From: Candidatus Nanoarchaeia archaeon
GTDB lineage: Archaea > Nanobdellota > Nanobdellia > SCGC-AAA011-G17 > JACPNG01
Assembly: GCA_028713535.1 (NCBI GenBank)
Contig: JAQTOC010000006.1
Coordinates: forward strand, 1 to 54,197
Length of the DNA stretch: 54,197 nt
Reading direction: 5' to 3'
Part shown: positions 44,672-50,528 of the stretch, one piece after another
Numbering within the stretch: position 1 is the first letter of the stretch
Layout of the letters: every line of letters starts with the position of its first letter
Program-made: the position numbers and the translations under genes
Notes under the pieces: model-generated
What the model was told of the DNA's origin: nothing
Databases searched by the model: none
Seen by the model: only the letters and a program-made list of their open reading frames with translations

Positions 44672-44698
44672 AAAAAAAGAGGAGGTTTAGATTACCTC
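44672..44698 (-). terminator. Hairpin terminator of the beta-helix gene
   Basis: Minus-strand GAGGT-loop-ACCTC stem (five bases) with the TAA stop in the loop, then CTC and a run of seven U (44672-44678). Confidence 0.5.
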
Positions 44699-47398
44699 AA
44701 AACTAATTGGTCCGTACATCGCTGTGTTGCCAGCAGGGTCTACCGCCTTGAATTCAACTTCATGGTTTCCGTCCTTGAAGTTTACAAGTTTATCATATGC
44801 TGTTGCCTTTGAAGCAATTCTTGTCCATCTAGGTGTTCTTGCTTTACCGTCCTTGTAATAAATGTCTGAAGCTTCATTGGTTGCTATGCTGAACTGGACC
44901 TTGTTGCTGTAAACTTTTCCATTCTGAGGTGAGCTTACAGACATTAATGGGGCAATCGTGTCTATGTTTGCAGTTGCTTTCTTAGACACTGCCTTAAATC
45001 CAGCTATATCCGTAATCTCAAATGTGAAGTTTACCTCTCCCTGTCCTATGTTATTAACATCAAAGATGCATATCTGGTTTTTTCCTCCAGGGCAGTCTGT
45101 TTTAGTCTCAGTTTTAATAACTCCGTCTTGCTCATATGTAAGTTTTACATCAACAGGGTTTTCTTCTGTGTATCTTACTTTAAACAAGCCGTCTCCAAAT
45201 CCTTTCTTAGGTTCTACCTGCGATATTTTTGGTTTTACTGAGTCTATGAAGAATGAAACTTCTTCAGTTGTATTTGATCCAGCGTAGTTTGTTGCCATTA
45301 TCTTTAATATGTGGCTTCCTTCCTTGAATGTTTTTGTTTTGTTGTATTCTATACAGTTCTTGCACAATAACTTGTATTTTCCGTCTATGCCATCATCCAT
45401 GTATTCAAGTTTTGCAACCTGCTCGCTTAGAAGAATGTCAATTGATTGTCTCTTGCTGTTTAATGTCCCTTCTTCTGGGCTGAAAATAGTTATGGTTGTT
45501 GATGTTGGATCTATTGTAAATGTCCATTCTTTTACTGCTTCATTTCCTGCATAATCTTTTGCTCTTATTTCTACAGTATGTAATCCTGCAGTCAAGCTAG
45601 CTACATAATCAATCTTTTTTGATAAGCTGTTATATGTGTGATCAACTAAAATATTATCAACTTTCATTGTTATTGTTGAAATATCTAGCTGTGAGTCTGT
45701 CTGGTATGGCTCTTTTATTGTAGCAGAGATTATTGGCTGTAAGCTTGATATCAATGACTCTTCTCCAGGATTTACGTTTGTTATCTCTGGTGCTCGTTGG
45801 TCAACATATATCTGTATATTCTGTTCTTCTTCTCCACTGCAAACATCAGACCACCAAGTTAATTCTAACAAACCATCTCCATCGTTAGGTGCATCTTCTA
45901 ATCCAAATGGCACTGTATAAATATGCTCTCCAGTTCCATCCCACCTGTATTTTATTAATGGGCTTGGTGTGCTTGGGTTTGTCAATGTGAGAGTTATGTT
46001 TGTTGTATACCATCCTTCATCTGGTAACTCAGGAGTTATTGTTAAGTCTGTAATATAATTCACAGTAAATGTTTGTTCCTCTCCTTCATCTAAATGTTCT
46101 TCACAATCTTCAACAACAAATTTCCAATGTACTGTATCTCCTCCAATTAAATCAGAACCTGGGATTGTTGCAACATATACTCCAGCATGTTTGGTTGCAG
46201 TATACTCCTCTGAGTTTGCTTCTAACCATACTGAAGGATTTGGACATGAAGATGAATTTGATGAAATTGTTGCATTAAATTCAACATCTTCATTTTCTAA
46301 AACACAACTATCTCCTATAAATTGTTGATCAATGCAGATTCCTAACCAAGGAGTGTAATCTACATCACCAACAATATTACCAACAGCCGGACCATCGCAT
46401 TTTCCCCAGTAATTATTCTCTGCATTTAGAACAGAAGCACCTGTCCAGTTTAAAGGATTAGCAATGTTTTCAAAAGAGTTGTAGTTGATTACTGCTGATC
46501 CAGTATTTTTCTCAAAGCTTATTGATGTTCCTAAGTTATGCAGATTGTTGTTTGTTATATCTGCTGATGATGTGTCTGTTATTGAATATGTCGATGTAAT
46601 TACAATTCCTGTATCGCAATCATAAATTTCGTTGTCATGGATATTTGCATACGAAGCACCGTTATCTGGATAACTTCCATAATAAGAACTTACAAATATT
46701 CCAGGAGAATCCCATTCTGGTGTTCCTGAAGCTAGAGCATCATGTAGGTCATTTTCATAAATTTCTACATTAGAGCCAGTCCATAAGTTAACTAAGTTTT
46801 GAACTCTGTTAACCCCATCAACATGATCTCCAATTATTTCGTTTCTATATACTTTTCCGCTAGAATGCACATATCTAATTCCTCTTTTATGGAATGAAGA
46901 AATTACGCAATCATAAATATCAACATTTGTAGAGTCTTCAATATTAATTCCATTTGCACCATTTACCCACACATTTTTAATAATAGAATTTTTTATTTCT
47001 ATGTTATTGGAATTCTTAATTAAGATGCCATGTTCAAAATTATTCTCCCCCACACCAGAGCCATGTCCGTTAACTTCAACATTGTCTACTGTAACACCGT
47101 TAGCTCCGTCAATTTTTATTATAAAATTATTTGCTCCTCCAGTAATAACTGGTCTTTCCCCAGCACCAATTAAATTAATATTATCAGTTATGATAACTTG
47201 TTCATTATAAGTTCCTGCTGCAACACTTACTGTGTCTCCATTGTTAGAATTATTTACCGCTGCCTGAATTGTACAGTATGGCAATCCAGTTGTATCATCA
47301 CAACCGGGCGCATTATTAACCTCTAATGTACCTGCAAAAACAAAACTTAAAGACGTAACAAAAAGTAATAAAACAATTAAAAAAATATTTTTTTTCAT
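44687..47398 (-). CDS. Secreted right-handed beta-helix protein with Ig-like C-terminal domains
   Basis: 903 residues. Signal peptide ending FVFAG; residues about 25-340 form a parallel beta-helix (YCTIQAAVNNSNNGDTVSVA, then short turns rich in Asn such as NSNNIEIKNSIIKN and NITNNNLHNLG); from about 360 come Ig/FnIII-like domains, two with VEIRAKDYAGNEAV and VEFKAVDPAGNTAMY ends. Beta-helix surface proteins often bind or cut polysaccharides; no catalytic residues can be named. The last domain is related to the end of the 47437-48558 protein. It follows that gene by 38 bases with GGAGG before the ATG, so they form one operon. Confidence 0.82.
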   Translation of the reverse strand: MKKNIFLIVLLLFVTSLSFVFAGTLEVNNAPGCDDTTGLPYCTIQAAVNNSNNGDTVSVAAGTYNEQVIITDNINLIGAGERPVITGGANNFIIKIDGANGVTVDNVEVNGHGSGVGENNFEHGILIKNSNNIEIKNSIIKNVWVNGANGINIEDSTNVDIYDCVISSFHKRGIRYVHSSGKVYRNEIIGDHVDGVNRVQNLVNLWTGSNVEIYENDLHDALASGTPEWDSPGIFVSSYYGSYPDNGASYANIHDNEIYDCDTGIVITSTYSITDTSSADITNNNLHNLGTSISFEKNTGSAVINYNSFENIANPLNWTGASVLNAENNYWGKCDGPAVGNIVGDVDYTPWLGICIDQQFIGDSCVLENEDVEFNATISSNSSSCPNPSVWLEANSEEYTATKHAGVYVATIPGSDLIGGDTVHWKFVVEDCEEHLDEGEEQTFTVNYITDLTITPELPDEGWYTTNITLTLTNPSTPSPLIKYRWDGTGEHIYTVPFGLEDAPNDGDGLLELTWWSDVCSGEEEQNIQIYVDQRAPEITNVNPGEESLISSLQPIISATIKEPYQTDSQLDISTITMKVDNILVDHTYNSLSKKIDYVASLTAGLHTVEIRAKDYAGNEAVKEWTFTIDPTSTTITIFSPEEGTLNSKRQSIDILLSEQVAKLEYMDDGIDGKYKLLCKNCIEYNKTKTFKEGSHILKIMATNYAGSNTTEEVSFFIDSVKPKISQVEPKKGFGDGLFKVRYTEENPVDVKLTYEQDGVIKTETKTDCPGGKNQICIFDVNNIGQGEVNFTFEITDIAGFKAVSKKATANIDTIAPLMSVSSPQNGKVYSNKVQFSIATNEASDIYYKDGKARTPRWTRIASKATAYDKLVNFKDGNHEVEFKAVDPAGNTAMYGPISFEVI

Positions 47399-47431
47399 TT
47401 TCTTTGGGCCTCCTTGTTTGTAAACCCACCA

Positions 47432-47447
47432 TAAGCTTAGTAGCTTA
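47432..47447 (-). other. Intergenic hairpin at the stop of the 373-residue gene
   Basis: TAAGCT/AGCTTA inverted repeat with a four-base loop spanning the TAA stop, with no U-run after it. It may slow processing or tune expression of the downstream beta-helix gene. Confidence 0.4.
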
Positions 47448-48558
47448 CAGTGAAGTCAACATTAATTGGAACAAAGTTTCCAGCCGGATCTGTTGCCTTA
47501 ATATCTACATTATGTGTCCCATTGCTGAAACTCTTTGTTTTGCTGTATTCCGTACACTTGCTGCACAGGCTCTTCCAAACAGGTATCTTGGCAGTATTGT
47601 CTCTGTATTGTAACTTTATAATCTCGCTTGATTTTATGTCAAACAAGACATATCTGCTGTTGTAAACTTCGTTTGTAGGTTTGTTTACAGTTAGTGTAGG
47701 GGGTGTTATATCTACCTTTACAGTAACAGGCATTTTTAATGAAACCTCTGTTACAAGGTCTTTTAGTTTGAAGTCATAATTAATTTCCTGTCCATCATAC
47801 TGATCTACATCAACACTTAATGTGCATGAAGCTGTCTTTGATGTTGAAGGGCAGTCTGTTCTAGTTAATTTTTTCTCACCATTTATATATAGTGAAACTT
47901 CCTTTAAATTCTCTTCTGTGTACTCAACTGTGAACTCTCCAGTTGTATAAGTTCCTTTCTTAGGGTATGTTTTCTTTATTTTAGGTATTTTTGAATCAAC
48001 AAACAAAGTTACTGTTTTATTTCCTTCATTTCCGTTTTTGTCTGTTGCAAATAATGTTATGCTGTTAAATCCTTCTTTCAGGCTTATTTTTTTGATGTAT
48101 GTTTTTCTCTCAGAGAAAACTCTGGTTCGTTTTCCTTCTCCGTATATATTGTCAGTATAGTATACGTCTCCAATTTCATCTAATGAAATATCAAATGAAA
48201 CTGATTTTGAAGTGTAAATATTACCTTCAGTAGGAGTATTTAATGTGATTATAGGTGCTTGTTGGTCAAGGCTTGATGAACTTCCAGGAGTGCACGTGCC
48301 ATCCTGATTGCATAAGTATTGTGCACCTCCATTGTAGCATTTCCTTATTGGGTCATATTCTTTCATGCATATTGGTCCGCAGTCATGATCATTTTTACAT
48401 TCACAGAAATCCCATTTTTCACATCTATTGTAAGTTACTAATGGATTACAAAAAGAAAATGTTTCACCATCTGCAAAGCAGACAAAAGAATCAGCATTTA
48501 TTGCTGGTATTATAGATAATGTTAGTAAGATTATGAATATTACTGTTGTTTTTTTCAT
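47437..48558 (-). CDS. Secreted Ig-like domain protein
   Basis: 373 residues. Signal peptide ending PAINA; a Cys-rich stretch (VTYNRCEKWDFCECKNDHDC, about residues 45-95), then three Ig-like domains each ending in a PxGN-type turn (KNGNEGNKTVTLFVDS; DPAGNFVPINVDFTV). The last two domains parallel those of the 44687-47398 protein (KLQYRDNTAKIPVWKSLC against DIYYKDGKARTPRWTRIA). No membrane anchor. First gene of the pair; AAGGAGAAC ribosome binding site. Confidence 0.8.
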   Translation of the reverse strand: MKKTTVIFIILLTLSIIPAINADSFVCFADGETFSFCNPLVTYNRCEKWDFCECKNDHDCGPICMKEYDPIRKCYNGGAQYLCNQDGTCTPGSSSSLDQQAPIITLNTPTEGNIYTSKSVSFDISLDEIGDVYYTDNIYGEGKRTRVFSERKTYIKKISLKEGFNSITLFATDKNGNEGNKTVTLFVDSKIPKIKKTYPKKGTYTTGEFTVEYTEENLKEVSLYINGEKKLTRTDCPSTSKTASCTLSVDVDQYDGQEINYDFKLKDLVTEVSLKMPVTVKVDITPPTLTVNKPTNEVYNSRYVLFDIKSSEIIKLQYRDNTAKIPVWKSLCSKCTEYSKTKSFSNGTHNVDIKATDPAGNFVPINVDFTVSY

Positions 48559-48617
48559 TTTTTATAGTTCTCCTTTTGCACCACCTCTTCTCTTTTTTTG
48601 TTGATTATAAAATAAAT

Positions 48618-48639
48618 AAAAAAAGGAAAAAAATTCCTT
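48618..48639 (-). terminator. Hairpin terminator of the 48643 gene
   Basis: Minus-strand AAGGAA-TTTTT-TTCCTT stem followed by a run of seven U (48618-48624), about four bases past the stop. Confidence 0.55.
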
Positions 48640-48642
48640 AAT

Positions 48643-49710
48643 TTATATTGCTTCACCCCAGAAGTAAATACTTCCAGTATCGAAGTCACCGTTGCATGGC
48701 TCTGGTAGCATTAATCTGAATGTTAATGACATTTCAGCGCCTGGTGCTAGGATGTTTCCAGCGAAGTAGTTTCCGTCATCTACATCTAAGTGAACTGGGC
48801 CTCTTATGATTTCTGCATCATTGTATAAGGTTGTACTGAATGAGTTACCGTATTCAATGTCTACATAACCTTCAGCATCGTGTCCCCAGCTGTCTGCTGT
48901 GCTGTAAGCACCGTTTACTGCGTAGTAATCAAAGCTGTCTAAGGATAGCTGGTTTGTAGTTGGGCACATTGCACCACTTGAACTTGAGTCGTAAAAGTCA
49001 GTTCCTGTGATAAACATATCCAACATTACTCCAGATCCTGCATCAGCATCGTTTCCAACCAATAAAGTTGGTGAGTAAGCTGCAGTTCCAGGTCTTACGT
49101 TTGCGAAGCCTAGGTCTCCCTCAACGCTCAATGCGATTGTTGGGTTGAAGAACCAGTATTCGTTTTCATCAACTGTGTTCTGTAATCCATCCAAGTCAGT
49201 AACTTCTGCTGTTACCCAGTATTCACCGTACATTGATTCCTGAGTTTCAACTGTTAAGGTACATGTGTAGTACTTCATTACCAATGGGTTGAAGTCCTCA
49301 GCACCAAGTACTTCTTCACCAATTCTTGCGTTACAGGATGGATCAATTCCAGTCTCTGTACTTGGGACACAGTTTACTTCTATGTCGTTTCCAACACCCT
49401 GTGAGCTTCCAATTGTCATGTAAACGTCTTCAATCTTGTTGATTCCGTTTTTATCCATGACTAATACGTCATATGCAATCTGCTCTCCTTCGAAAGCGTA
49501 GTTCTGTGTTCTTTCGAAAAGTTCGGTATCGTCAACTTTTCCTTCTTCAACATTGTCGTCTAATACTACTCTAGAATCGCACATCCAGATTTCTGGAACA
49601 AAATCTTCGGTTTCGATTTCAACGCCGATTCCAGTTCCAACGCTGTTTGCTGTTGCAAATGATACTGCTACCATAAGAACAACAGCCAAAACTGCAATTA
49701 GTTTTTTCAT
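48643..49710 (-). CDS. Secreted surface protein, probably abundant
   Basis: 355 residues from the ATG at 49710. Signal peptide KKLIAVLAVVLMVAVSFATA; the rest is acidic, beta-rich, with six Cys (EIWMCDSRVVLDD; KYYTCTLTVETQ), and no membrane anchor. An AGGAGG ribosome binding site sits eight bases before the ATG. The open frame continues 50 codons upstream, but that stretch is a structured leader and the signal peptide fixes the start. Codons are GC-richer than most neighbours, and the strong ribosome site and terminator suggest high expression. Role unknown; a main surface or S-layer component is a fair guess. Confidence 0.78.
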   Translation of the reverse strand: MKKLIAVLAVVLMVAVSFATANSVGTGIGVEIETEDFVPEIWMCDSRVVLDDNVEEGKVDDTELFERTQNYAFEGEQIAYDVLVMDKNGINKIEDVYMTIGSSQGVGNDIEVNCVPSTETGIDPSCNARIGEEVLGAEDFNPLVMKYYTCTLTVETQESMYGEYWVTAEVTDLDGLQNTVDENEYWFFNPTIALSVEGDLGFANVRPGTAAYSPTLLVGNDADAGSGVMLDMFITGTDFYDSSSSGAMCPTTNQLSLDSFDYYAVNGAYSTADSWGHDAEGYVDIEYGNSFSTTLYNDAEIIRGPVHLDVDDGNYFAGNILAPGAEMSLTFRLMLPEPCNGDFDTGSIYFWGEAI

Positions 49711-49746
49711 TTTGTATTGTCCTCCTTGTTTTATCATCTCTTTTTT

Positions 49747-49808
49747 ACCCAACATAGGTTGATGTTGGCTTTGCGCAAATCCAACTTTGCGAATTTGCAA
49801 TGTTGGGT
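49747..49808 (-). promoter_or_regulatory. Structured leader with mutually exclusive hairpins
   Basis: On the minus strand ACCCAACAT (49800-49808) can pair with ATGTTGGGT (49747-49755), closing a loop that holds GCAAAT/ATTTGC (inner stem). Alternatively the middle CCAACAT (49762-49768) pairs with ATGTTGG, loop CAACCT. The two forms compete for the same 3' strand, as in switch RNAs. It lies about 25 bases upstream of the ribosome binding site. Confidence 0.5.
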
Positions 49809-49860
49809 CTTTCTTCAAGACCTTATTTCTAATTCTCTGTGATCCAATTTTAGTCATCAC

Positions 49861-50213
49861 TCTTAAATTAATGAATCATAAAATCACGTGTTTTTTATTT
49901 AAGCATTATTCAGAAACTAAATAGATGTTACAAAACAGAAATAGCCCAAAAATTCCTTTACTATAACTCAGTGCGTAAAACAAAGAAAAACAAAAAAATT
50001 CTTAATTGTTCCGTCGATAAAATCAAGTGCTCAAACTAACATAAAAATGTTGTTATGTATAAGCCAGAACTAATATGTTTTTAAGCAAAAGTATCATCGG
50101 AATTTAGTAGTGATTTTTTTTCACTTGAAGATTACAACCCATCCAAAGTAACTCGAAAATACAAGGAAAGTTTAATGTGCATAATTTTAAATAAAACAAA
50201 TCCTTTATGAATT
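49861..50213. other. Intergenic stretch with no clear gene
   Basis: 353 bases. Holds the likely promoter of the 49710 gene (TATA-like GCTTAAATAAAA on the minus strand, 49893-49904, predicting a leader of about 160 bases) and a TTTAAATAAAAC element at 50186-50197 before the 50214 frame. A short plus-strand frame near 50120-50210 (start LEDYNPSKVTRKYKESL) may be a gene remnant. Nothing else was recognised. Confidence 0.5.
49893..49904 (-). promoter_or_regulatory. TATA box of the 49710 gene
   Basis: Minus-strand GCTTAAATAAAA. Transcription would start near 49872, giving an unusually long leader for this genome, about 160 bases. Confidence 0.5.
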
Positions 50214-50376
50214 ATGGAAATAGAATACAAAAAAAAACAAGATAGTATTTGCCAAAGAATTAAATAATCTGGCCAAATACTTGTATAACTTATTTAAAGA
50301 CAAACTTGATATGAATTTATTGGATTCATTTAACCAAAAACTTGAAATAGGAGAACGGTTTAAATATCTAAGATGA
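50214..50376 (+). pseudogene. Small gene broken by a frameshift in an A run
   Basis: From ATG at 50214 the frame stops after 17 codons. If the run of nine A (50229-50237) had eight, the frame would read MEIEYKKNKIVFAKELNN and go on for 53 residues to GERFKYLR, ending in a TGA that overlaps the next ATG by four bases. The coherent coding after the shift and the ATGA overlap show a real gene. The start resembles N-termini of archaeal nucleotidyltransferase-like proteins that pair with small partner proteins (from memory). It may be a sequencing error, a decayed gene or a frameshift read at low level. Confidence 0.6.
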
Positions 50377-50525
50377 AGCTTCCCAAAATAGACCTAGAGG
50401 AACTTAACAAACAAAAAGAAAAAAATTTTGAAGAGAGATTAAAATTTATTGATCGTTATGCTGAATGGGTTAAAAAAACCCCAAACAAAGTATGGAGTTC
50501 TCAGCAAAAAGAGCTTATTGATTAA
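50373..50525 (+). CDS. 50-residue protein, partner of the frameshifted gene
   Basis: 50 residues, helical and charged: LPKIDLEELNKQKEKNFEER, then FIDRYAEWVKKTPNKVWSSQ ending QKELID. The FIDxYxEWxKKTPNxxWSxQ pattern recalls short archaeal proteins found beside nucleotidyltransferase genes, possibly toxin-antitoxin related (from memory). It starts inside the stop of the upstream frame, so is translationally coupled to it. Its TAA is three bases from the convergent phosphoesterase gene. Confidence 0.65.
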   Translation: MKLPKIDLEELNKQKEKNFEERLKFIDRYAEWVKKTPNKVWSSQQKELID

Positions 50526-50528
50526 GTA

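Follow-up and report, generated by a model that had tools for sequence, protein, structure and literature searches.

In the DPANN genome studied here, a gene for a secreted surface protein is preceded by a real, long and structured mRNA leader, which is not a demonstrated switch and which combines ordinary with interesting features. As the best explanation, held at about even confidence, it would serve a gene for a major secreted, S-layer-like DPANN protein by constitutive ribosome loading or coupling and not as a switch that responds to a ligand or to temperature. The window, by which is meant the whole stretch of 54,197 nucleotides analysed, is part of an 873-kb DPANN genome (G000), and the leader, its gene and its promoter lie on the minus strand. 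DPANN archaea are mostly uncultured and, to our knowledge, almost nothing is known about their gene control; a search of open-licence papers found none that describes leaders of this kind in DPANN.

The surface-protein gene begins with an AUG at 49710, which is preceded by a Shine-Dalgarno (SD) motif AGGAGG at 49721..49726. A position weight matrix for TATA boxes, built from 32 homologous promoters and run over the 48 open reading frames of the window, gave its top score of 14.6 bits to CTTAAATA at 49896..49903, -193 from the AUG. Since the second-best site upstream of the gene reaches only -0.5 bits, a leader of ~165 nt with a predicted start is credible and well supported. The position of the TATA box places the transcription start at about 49873-49880 and the predicted 5' leader at 49711..49877, in agreement with the ~160 bases proposed in an earlier note on this DNA; a start downstream of 49747, which would speak against the leader, is not indicated by the promoter prediction. 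In each of the three species of the genus, and also in two other genera of this family, the leader promoter lies between -181 and -218. Other homologues with a placed TATA box carry it about 105-226 nt upstream of the AUG, for some no TATA box has been found, and a similarly long leader is present in nearly all homologues where the promoter could be placed. The earlier note had described most genes as nearly leaderless. In the window, to which the comparison of leader lengths was confined, the best TATA box of several other genes does lie at -27 to -30, as expected for leaderless transcripts, but for others the site is found at -43 to -98, and the contrast holds only roughly. Upstream of the promoter, 49911-50528 comprise ~600 nt without a convincing gene, which is long for such a compact genome.

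The gene behind the leader (48643..49710) encodes a secreted beta-sandwich surface protein of 355 aa with the signal peptide MKKLIAVLAVVLMVAVSFATA; both the strong SD and the secreted product anticipated behind a folded leader are supported. It is the first of a run of three genes for secreted proteins with short gaps (44687-49710, minus strand), followed by an Ig-like/Big_13 protein and a 903-aa secreted repeat-type protein, and in G010, a genome of another genus of the family, the homologue is likewise followed by an Ig-like gene of the same kind as this second one. Comparison of the surface protein with Pfam and NCBIfam gave no family above cut-off. Its AlphaFold model is all beta with a mean pLDDT of 80, and fold matches in the PDB are of the Ig/adhesin type with low TM (~0.2), the Deinococcus HPI S-layer protein reaching a TM of 0.24. 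When a signal peptide together with repeated beta-sandwich domains is taken as characteristic of S-layer proteins, the signal-like N-terminus and the all-beta model suggest that the protein may be called S-layer-like. Homologues originate from MAGs labelled Woesearchaeota, Pacearchaeota, Nanoarchaeia and similar; none has been found in viral contigs.

The whole leader folds better than shuffled sequences, with a z of -2.7 and 1/200 shuffles as good in one run and a z of -3.3 in a second (z about -3 overall). Three successive hairpins, termed A, H1 and H2, are predicted as the dominant structure of the full leader. Hairpin A, GGUCUU-gaaga-AAGACC (49806..49822), is part of the minimum free energy structure and is absent from the two sister species, G001 and G002. 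Hairpin H1, GCAAAUUC-gcaaaguu-GGAUUUGC (49775..49798), contains an inner stem of GCAAAT (49793..49798) and ATTTGC (49775..49780), and its arms are invariant in G000, G001, G002 and G010. Hairpin H2, CCAACAU-caaccu-AUGUUGG (49749..49768), also called the 3:4 pairing, is the predicted dominant state with P = 0.95; it persists throughout the three species of the genus, and G010 has a hairpin of different sequence at the same place. An 83-nt core of the window leader has a folding z of -2.8, and the H1-H2 core reaches -3.1, -2.0, -2.35 and -3.1 in the four genomes. As wholes, the leaders of the sister species barely beat their shuffles (z -1.0 and -0.9) and the mean z over 37 homologous leaders is only -0.73.

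Conservation of the leader is highest in the core, which within the genus is 86-91% identical, compared with 67-74% for the open reading frame and 49-66% for the whole leader. The most conserved stretch contains a frameshift in G002, caused by the loss of 1 nt, so that what is preserved here is the RNA or DNA and not a coding frame. A search with a model of the core found one place per genome in the four genomes, always before the surface-protein gene, and nothing convincing as a further copy in the genome or the family. The two-hairpin core is conserved as a single-copy element in the genus and in one more genus of the family. Covariation in relatives, which the earlier note had named as the check on its proposal, is not significant for the core in the four genomes (128/500 shuffles reach the observed value), and H1 is uninformative in this respect because its arms are invariant. 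For the switch proposed there, the outcome which the note itself had regarded as contrary has thus largely been obtained. By eye and in few sequences, the leaders L041, L049 and L057 have the A-H1-H2 order of the window with largely different stems, which would amount to covariation across families.

All the sequences on which a switch had been built are present on the minus strand, namely ACCCAACAT (49800..49808), the CCAACAT copy (49762..49768), the 3' copy ATGTTGGGT (49747..49755), the GCAAAT/ATTTGC stem and the AGGAGG site. In such a riboswitch or RNA thermometer the 3' copy would swap between the two partners, forming either H2 or the alternative 1:4 pairing with ACCCAACAT, and in this way control translation. 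Both pairings are possible in the sequence, and the two states come within 1-3 kcal/mol of each other when an 80-nt excerpt alone is folded. In the full leader at 37 C, however, the 3' copy pairs with the 49768 copy with P = 0.95 and with the 49808 copy with P = 0.01, and the 9-bp ACCCAACAT/ATGTTGGGT pairing rises to just 0.20 even at 70 C; it is rare because the 49808 copy is partly held in the hairpin GGUCUU/AAGACC. When either state is enforced, exposure of the translation start is the same, the SD being open at 0.33 in the 3:4 state and 0.32 in the 1:4 state and the AUG at 0.41 in both. Furthermore, the 1:4 pairing is restricted to the window genome and broken in both sister species, since these have TACAACTTG in place of ACCCAACAT. 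The absence of a known RNA class had been anticipated correctly: Rfam at gathering and relaxed thresholds found just a tRNA in window and leader, with chance-level matches in the leader region, and in 15 relatives' loci nothing but a tRNA at the gathering threshold. Inspection by eye revealed no U-run after the hairpins, as would be required for polyU transcription termination as described in archaea (PMC10450193), and transcription attenuation was therefore rejected. The switch is already largely refuted and we consider it very improbable. The alternative pairing is a property of one sequence without a predicted output, a by-product of the repeated CCAAC/GUUGG motif.

Opening of the SD with temperature, from 0.32 at 10-37 C to 0.41 at 55 C and 0.79 at 70 C in the window leader, is a separate observation. 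The predicted partners of the SD in the window genome are signal-peptide codons and not the leader repeats (open 0.21), whereas the SD is open at 0.67 and 0.90 in the sister species, so that this pairing is not conserved. Conserved masking of the SD by the coding region, clear in the window genome and missing in the sister species, was rejected.

The most widespread property of the homologous leaders, of which about 50 distinct ones were collected, concerns translation. An upstream open reading frame (uORF) of at least 20 codons that ends at -8 to +4 of the main AUG is present in 24 of 37 leaders, with 3.0 expected from shuffles, and 13 of these 24 uORFs end at exactly AUGA (+4). With a looser rule that does not require a TATA box, the proportion is 30/48, against 1/32 of the other SD-led genes of the same loci. 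The count of 24 against 3 is the main evidence for a uORF that is putatively coupled to the gene. In related pairs, substitutions in the uORF are about equally distributed over codon positions 1, 2 and 3, and all gaps between relatives are multiples of 3, a result weaker than it appears since both ends of the frame are in frame by choice. A frame that is kept while its peptide drifts points to translational coupling. An arrest peptide of the SecM type was ruled out, as no uORF peptide is conserved. In several leaders the AUG of the uORF lies, by eye, near the expected transcription start. Short uORFs ~100-146 nt upstream of the main AUG, with their ends on the main start codon or only a few bases away from it, are seen in L033, L035, L044 (AUGA), L056, L069 (stop at -6) and other homologous loci; the peptides of the short uORFs in homologous loci are non-conserved and their last codons often encode the SD (ERRxx, KGGxx).

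The counterpart in the window is a frame from an ATG at 49857 that runs without a stop and in frame into the main open reading frame (49711..49857, minus strand), and a coupled uORF that ends at the main start is not what the window genome has. An ATG-started open stretch as long as this one is found in 1.5% of shuffles. The open-frame length is matched by 3.5% of shuffles for G010, and for the sister species by 12% and, ATG-started, 34% (17% with GTG/TTG). The uORF ends at -23 in G001, at -26 in G002, where it starts with TTG, and at -22 in G010. An N-terminally extended protein with ATG 49857 as the usual start has been rejected, because the sister species and the inspected homologues start at the SD-preceded signal peptide. 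On these sequences, the genus of the window seems to have only a relaxed form of coupling, and the window leader works like, or descends from, a uORF-coupling device at most.

A second recurring element was recognized by eye as UUCAURGUY followed by a stem in many leaders and in different reading frames, with changed stem pairs such as GUUAUAC/GUGUAAC, GUUAUGC/GUAUGAC, GUCUUU/AAAGAC and GUCAU/AUGAC. The flank YAYRGUY occurs at 22 sites where 6.5 are expected, and a stem of at least 5 bp follows at 16/22 flank sites compared with 36/141 control sites (Fisher p = 3e-5; p = 3e-4 after removal of near-duplicates). This hairpin A test was site-based and did not choose the 3' arm, which the alignment misplaces in three sequences. 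Hairpin A of the window resembles the recurring hairpin but has the flank only in part. Among further leaders, L028 and L045 from two distant Woesearchaeota have a common long-range stem GTACCAGCT/AGCTGGTAC, and L079, 170 nt upstream of the main AUG, is unusually GC-rich and probably structured, with no TATA box found and no Rfam match.

These hairpins lend themselves to a reading as cis-regulatory RNA, in which expression would be set by an RNA-binding protein attached to A, H1 and H2, perhaps the surface protein itself or some factor associated with the ribosome, with the uORF of the relatives as part of the control. The strong conservation of the H1-H2 core at the nucleotide level is in its favour, as is the recurrence of the YAYRGUY-flanked hairpin in different reading frames. 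It fits less well that covariation of the core is not significant, that the 37 leaders fold on average little better than shuffles, that both sister species lack hairpin A and that a second copy in the genome was not found; we regard protein binding as possible and hold it only tentatively. Should the structures be incidental, the AT-rich leader would be long for promoter or spacing reasons and its low-complexity repeats would pair by chance; this agrees with whole sister leaders only slightly above shuffles, and is improbable given that no other part of the leader is as well conserved as the core, whose folding is significant in four genomes.

Another reading concerns the DNA: the imperfect palindrome GTTGGATTTGCGCAAAGCCAAC (49764..49785), which may also form an RNA hairpin 2:3, would serve a transcription factor as operator, at a place downstream of the transcription start. 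All three species of the genus possess this palindrome, and two more genera have related ones, GGGATTTGCAAATCTC and GAGATTTGCAAATCTC. The spacing of the half-sites differs by 2 bp between genera, however, which a dimer would hardly tolerate; H2 is kept although it falls outside the palindrome, the palindrome core occurs once in the genome, and a site ~90 nt inside the transcript would be in an unusual position, which together make an operator quite improbable.

In the preferred reading of a constitutive ribosome-loading or coupling leader, the uORF of the relatives starts at or near the 5' end of the RNA and terminates on the main AUG or overlaps with it, and the terminating ribosome would be left on a strong SD and restart on the main gene. 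In the genus of the window the uORF is relaxed: in the sister species it ends ~23-26 nt ahead of the gene, and in the window it is fused to the gene in frame. H1 and H2, just upstream of the SD, probably keep the RNA compact and stable, which would help ribosome loading or mRNA life. The identical accessibility of the SD in either pairing state favours this reading. Against it stand the window genome, which is without a terminated, coupled uORF, the core stretch, the constraint on which is not on the coding frame, and the SD of the window, predicted to be paired with signal-peptide codons, which does not apply to the sister species. A wider and rather unlikely proposal would unite the observations in one hitherto undescribed leader element of DPANN surface-protein genes, with the recurring hairpin (UUCAURGUY flank, covarying stem) and, in Woesearchaeales, two further tandem hairpins, all inside a peptide-neutral, AUG-coupled uORF, together tuning surface-layer synthesis via ribosome traffic.

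In Haloferax, termination followed by reinitiation has been demonstrated where genes overlap, with the assistance of an SD inside the gene (Huber et al., 2019; PMC6728339). As in this archaeal AUGA coupling, the frame of most relatives has its stop at or beside the main AUG and an SD inside or just before its end; unlike there, where two functional genes are coupled, the uORF has 24-60 codons and a peptide that is not conserved, and the frame of the window is without a stop and fused to the gene. In Sulfolobus, 5' UTRs of abundant proteins including the S-layer genes slaA/slaB raise protein yield (PMC11627041). The alba and slaA/slaB 5' UTRs share with the present case an SD-bearing leader, a surface or abundant protein and a background of many leaderless genes; the leader here is ~165 nt long and has stable hairpins. 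Bacterial trp-type attenuators equally have four mutually complementary segments and a translated leader, as in the relatives, but a terminator, sequestration of the SD by the repeats and a conserved uORF peptide are absent here, and the 1:4 pairing is not conserved. With riboswitches and RNA thermometers the long structured leader is shared, whereas a conserved aptamer and alternative states of comparable weight are lacking and the SD is unmasked by the repeats.

The case illustrates how an attractive switch may turn out to be a coincidence, confined to one species, within a leader whose structure is real. Together with its relatives, the leader also provides a clear and testable example of a uORF that would be selected for translation and not for its product. 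The position of the leader is kept for one surface-protein gene across several orders, with an open frame the peptide of which is free to change, which suggests a ribosome hand-over for a major envelope protein of these archaea.
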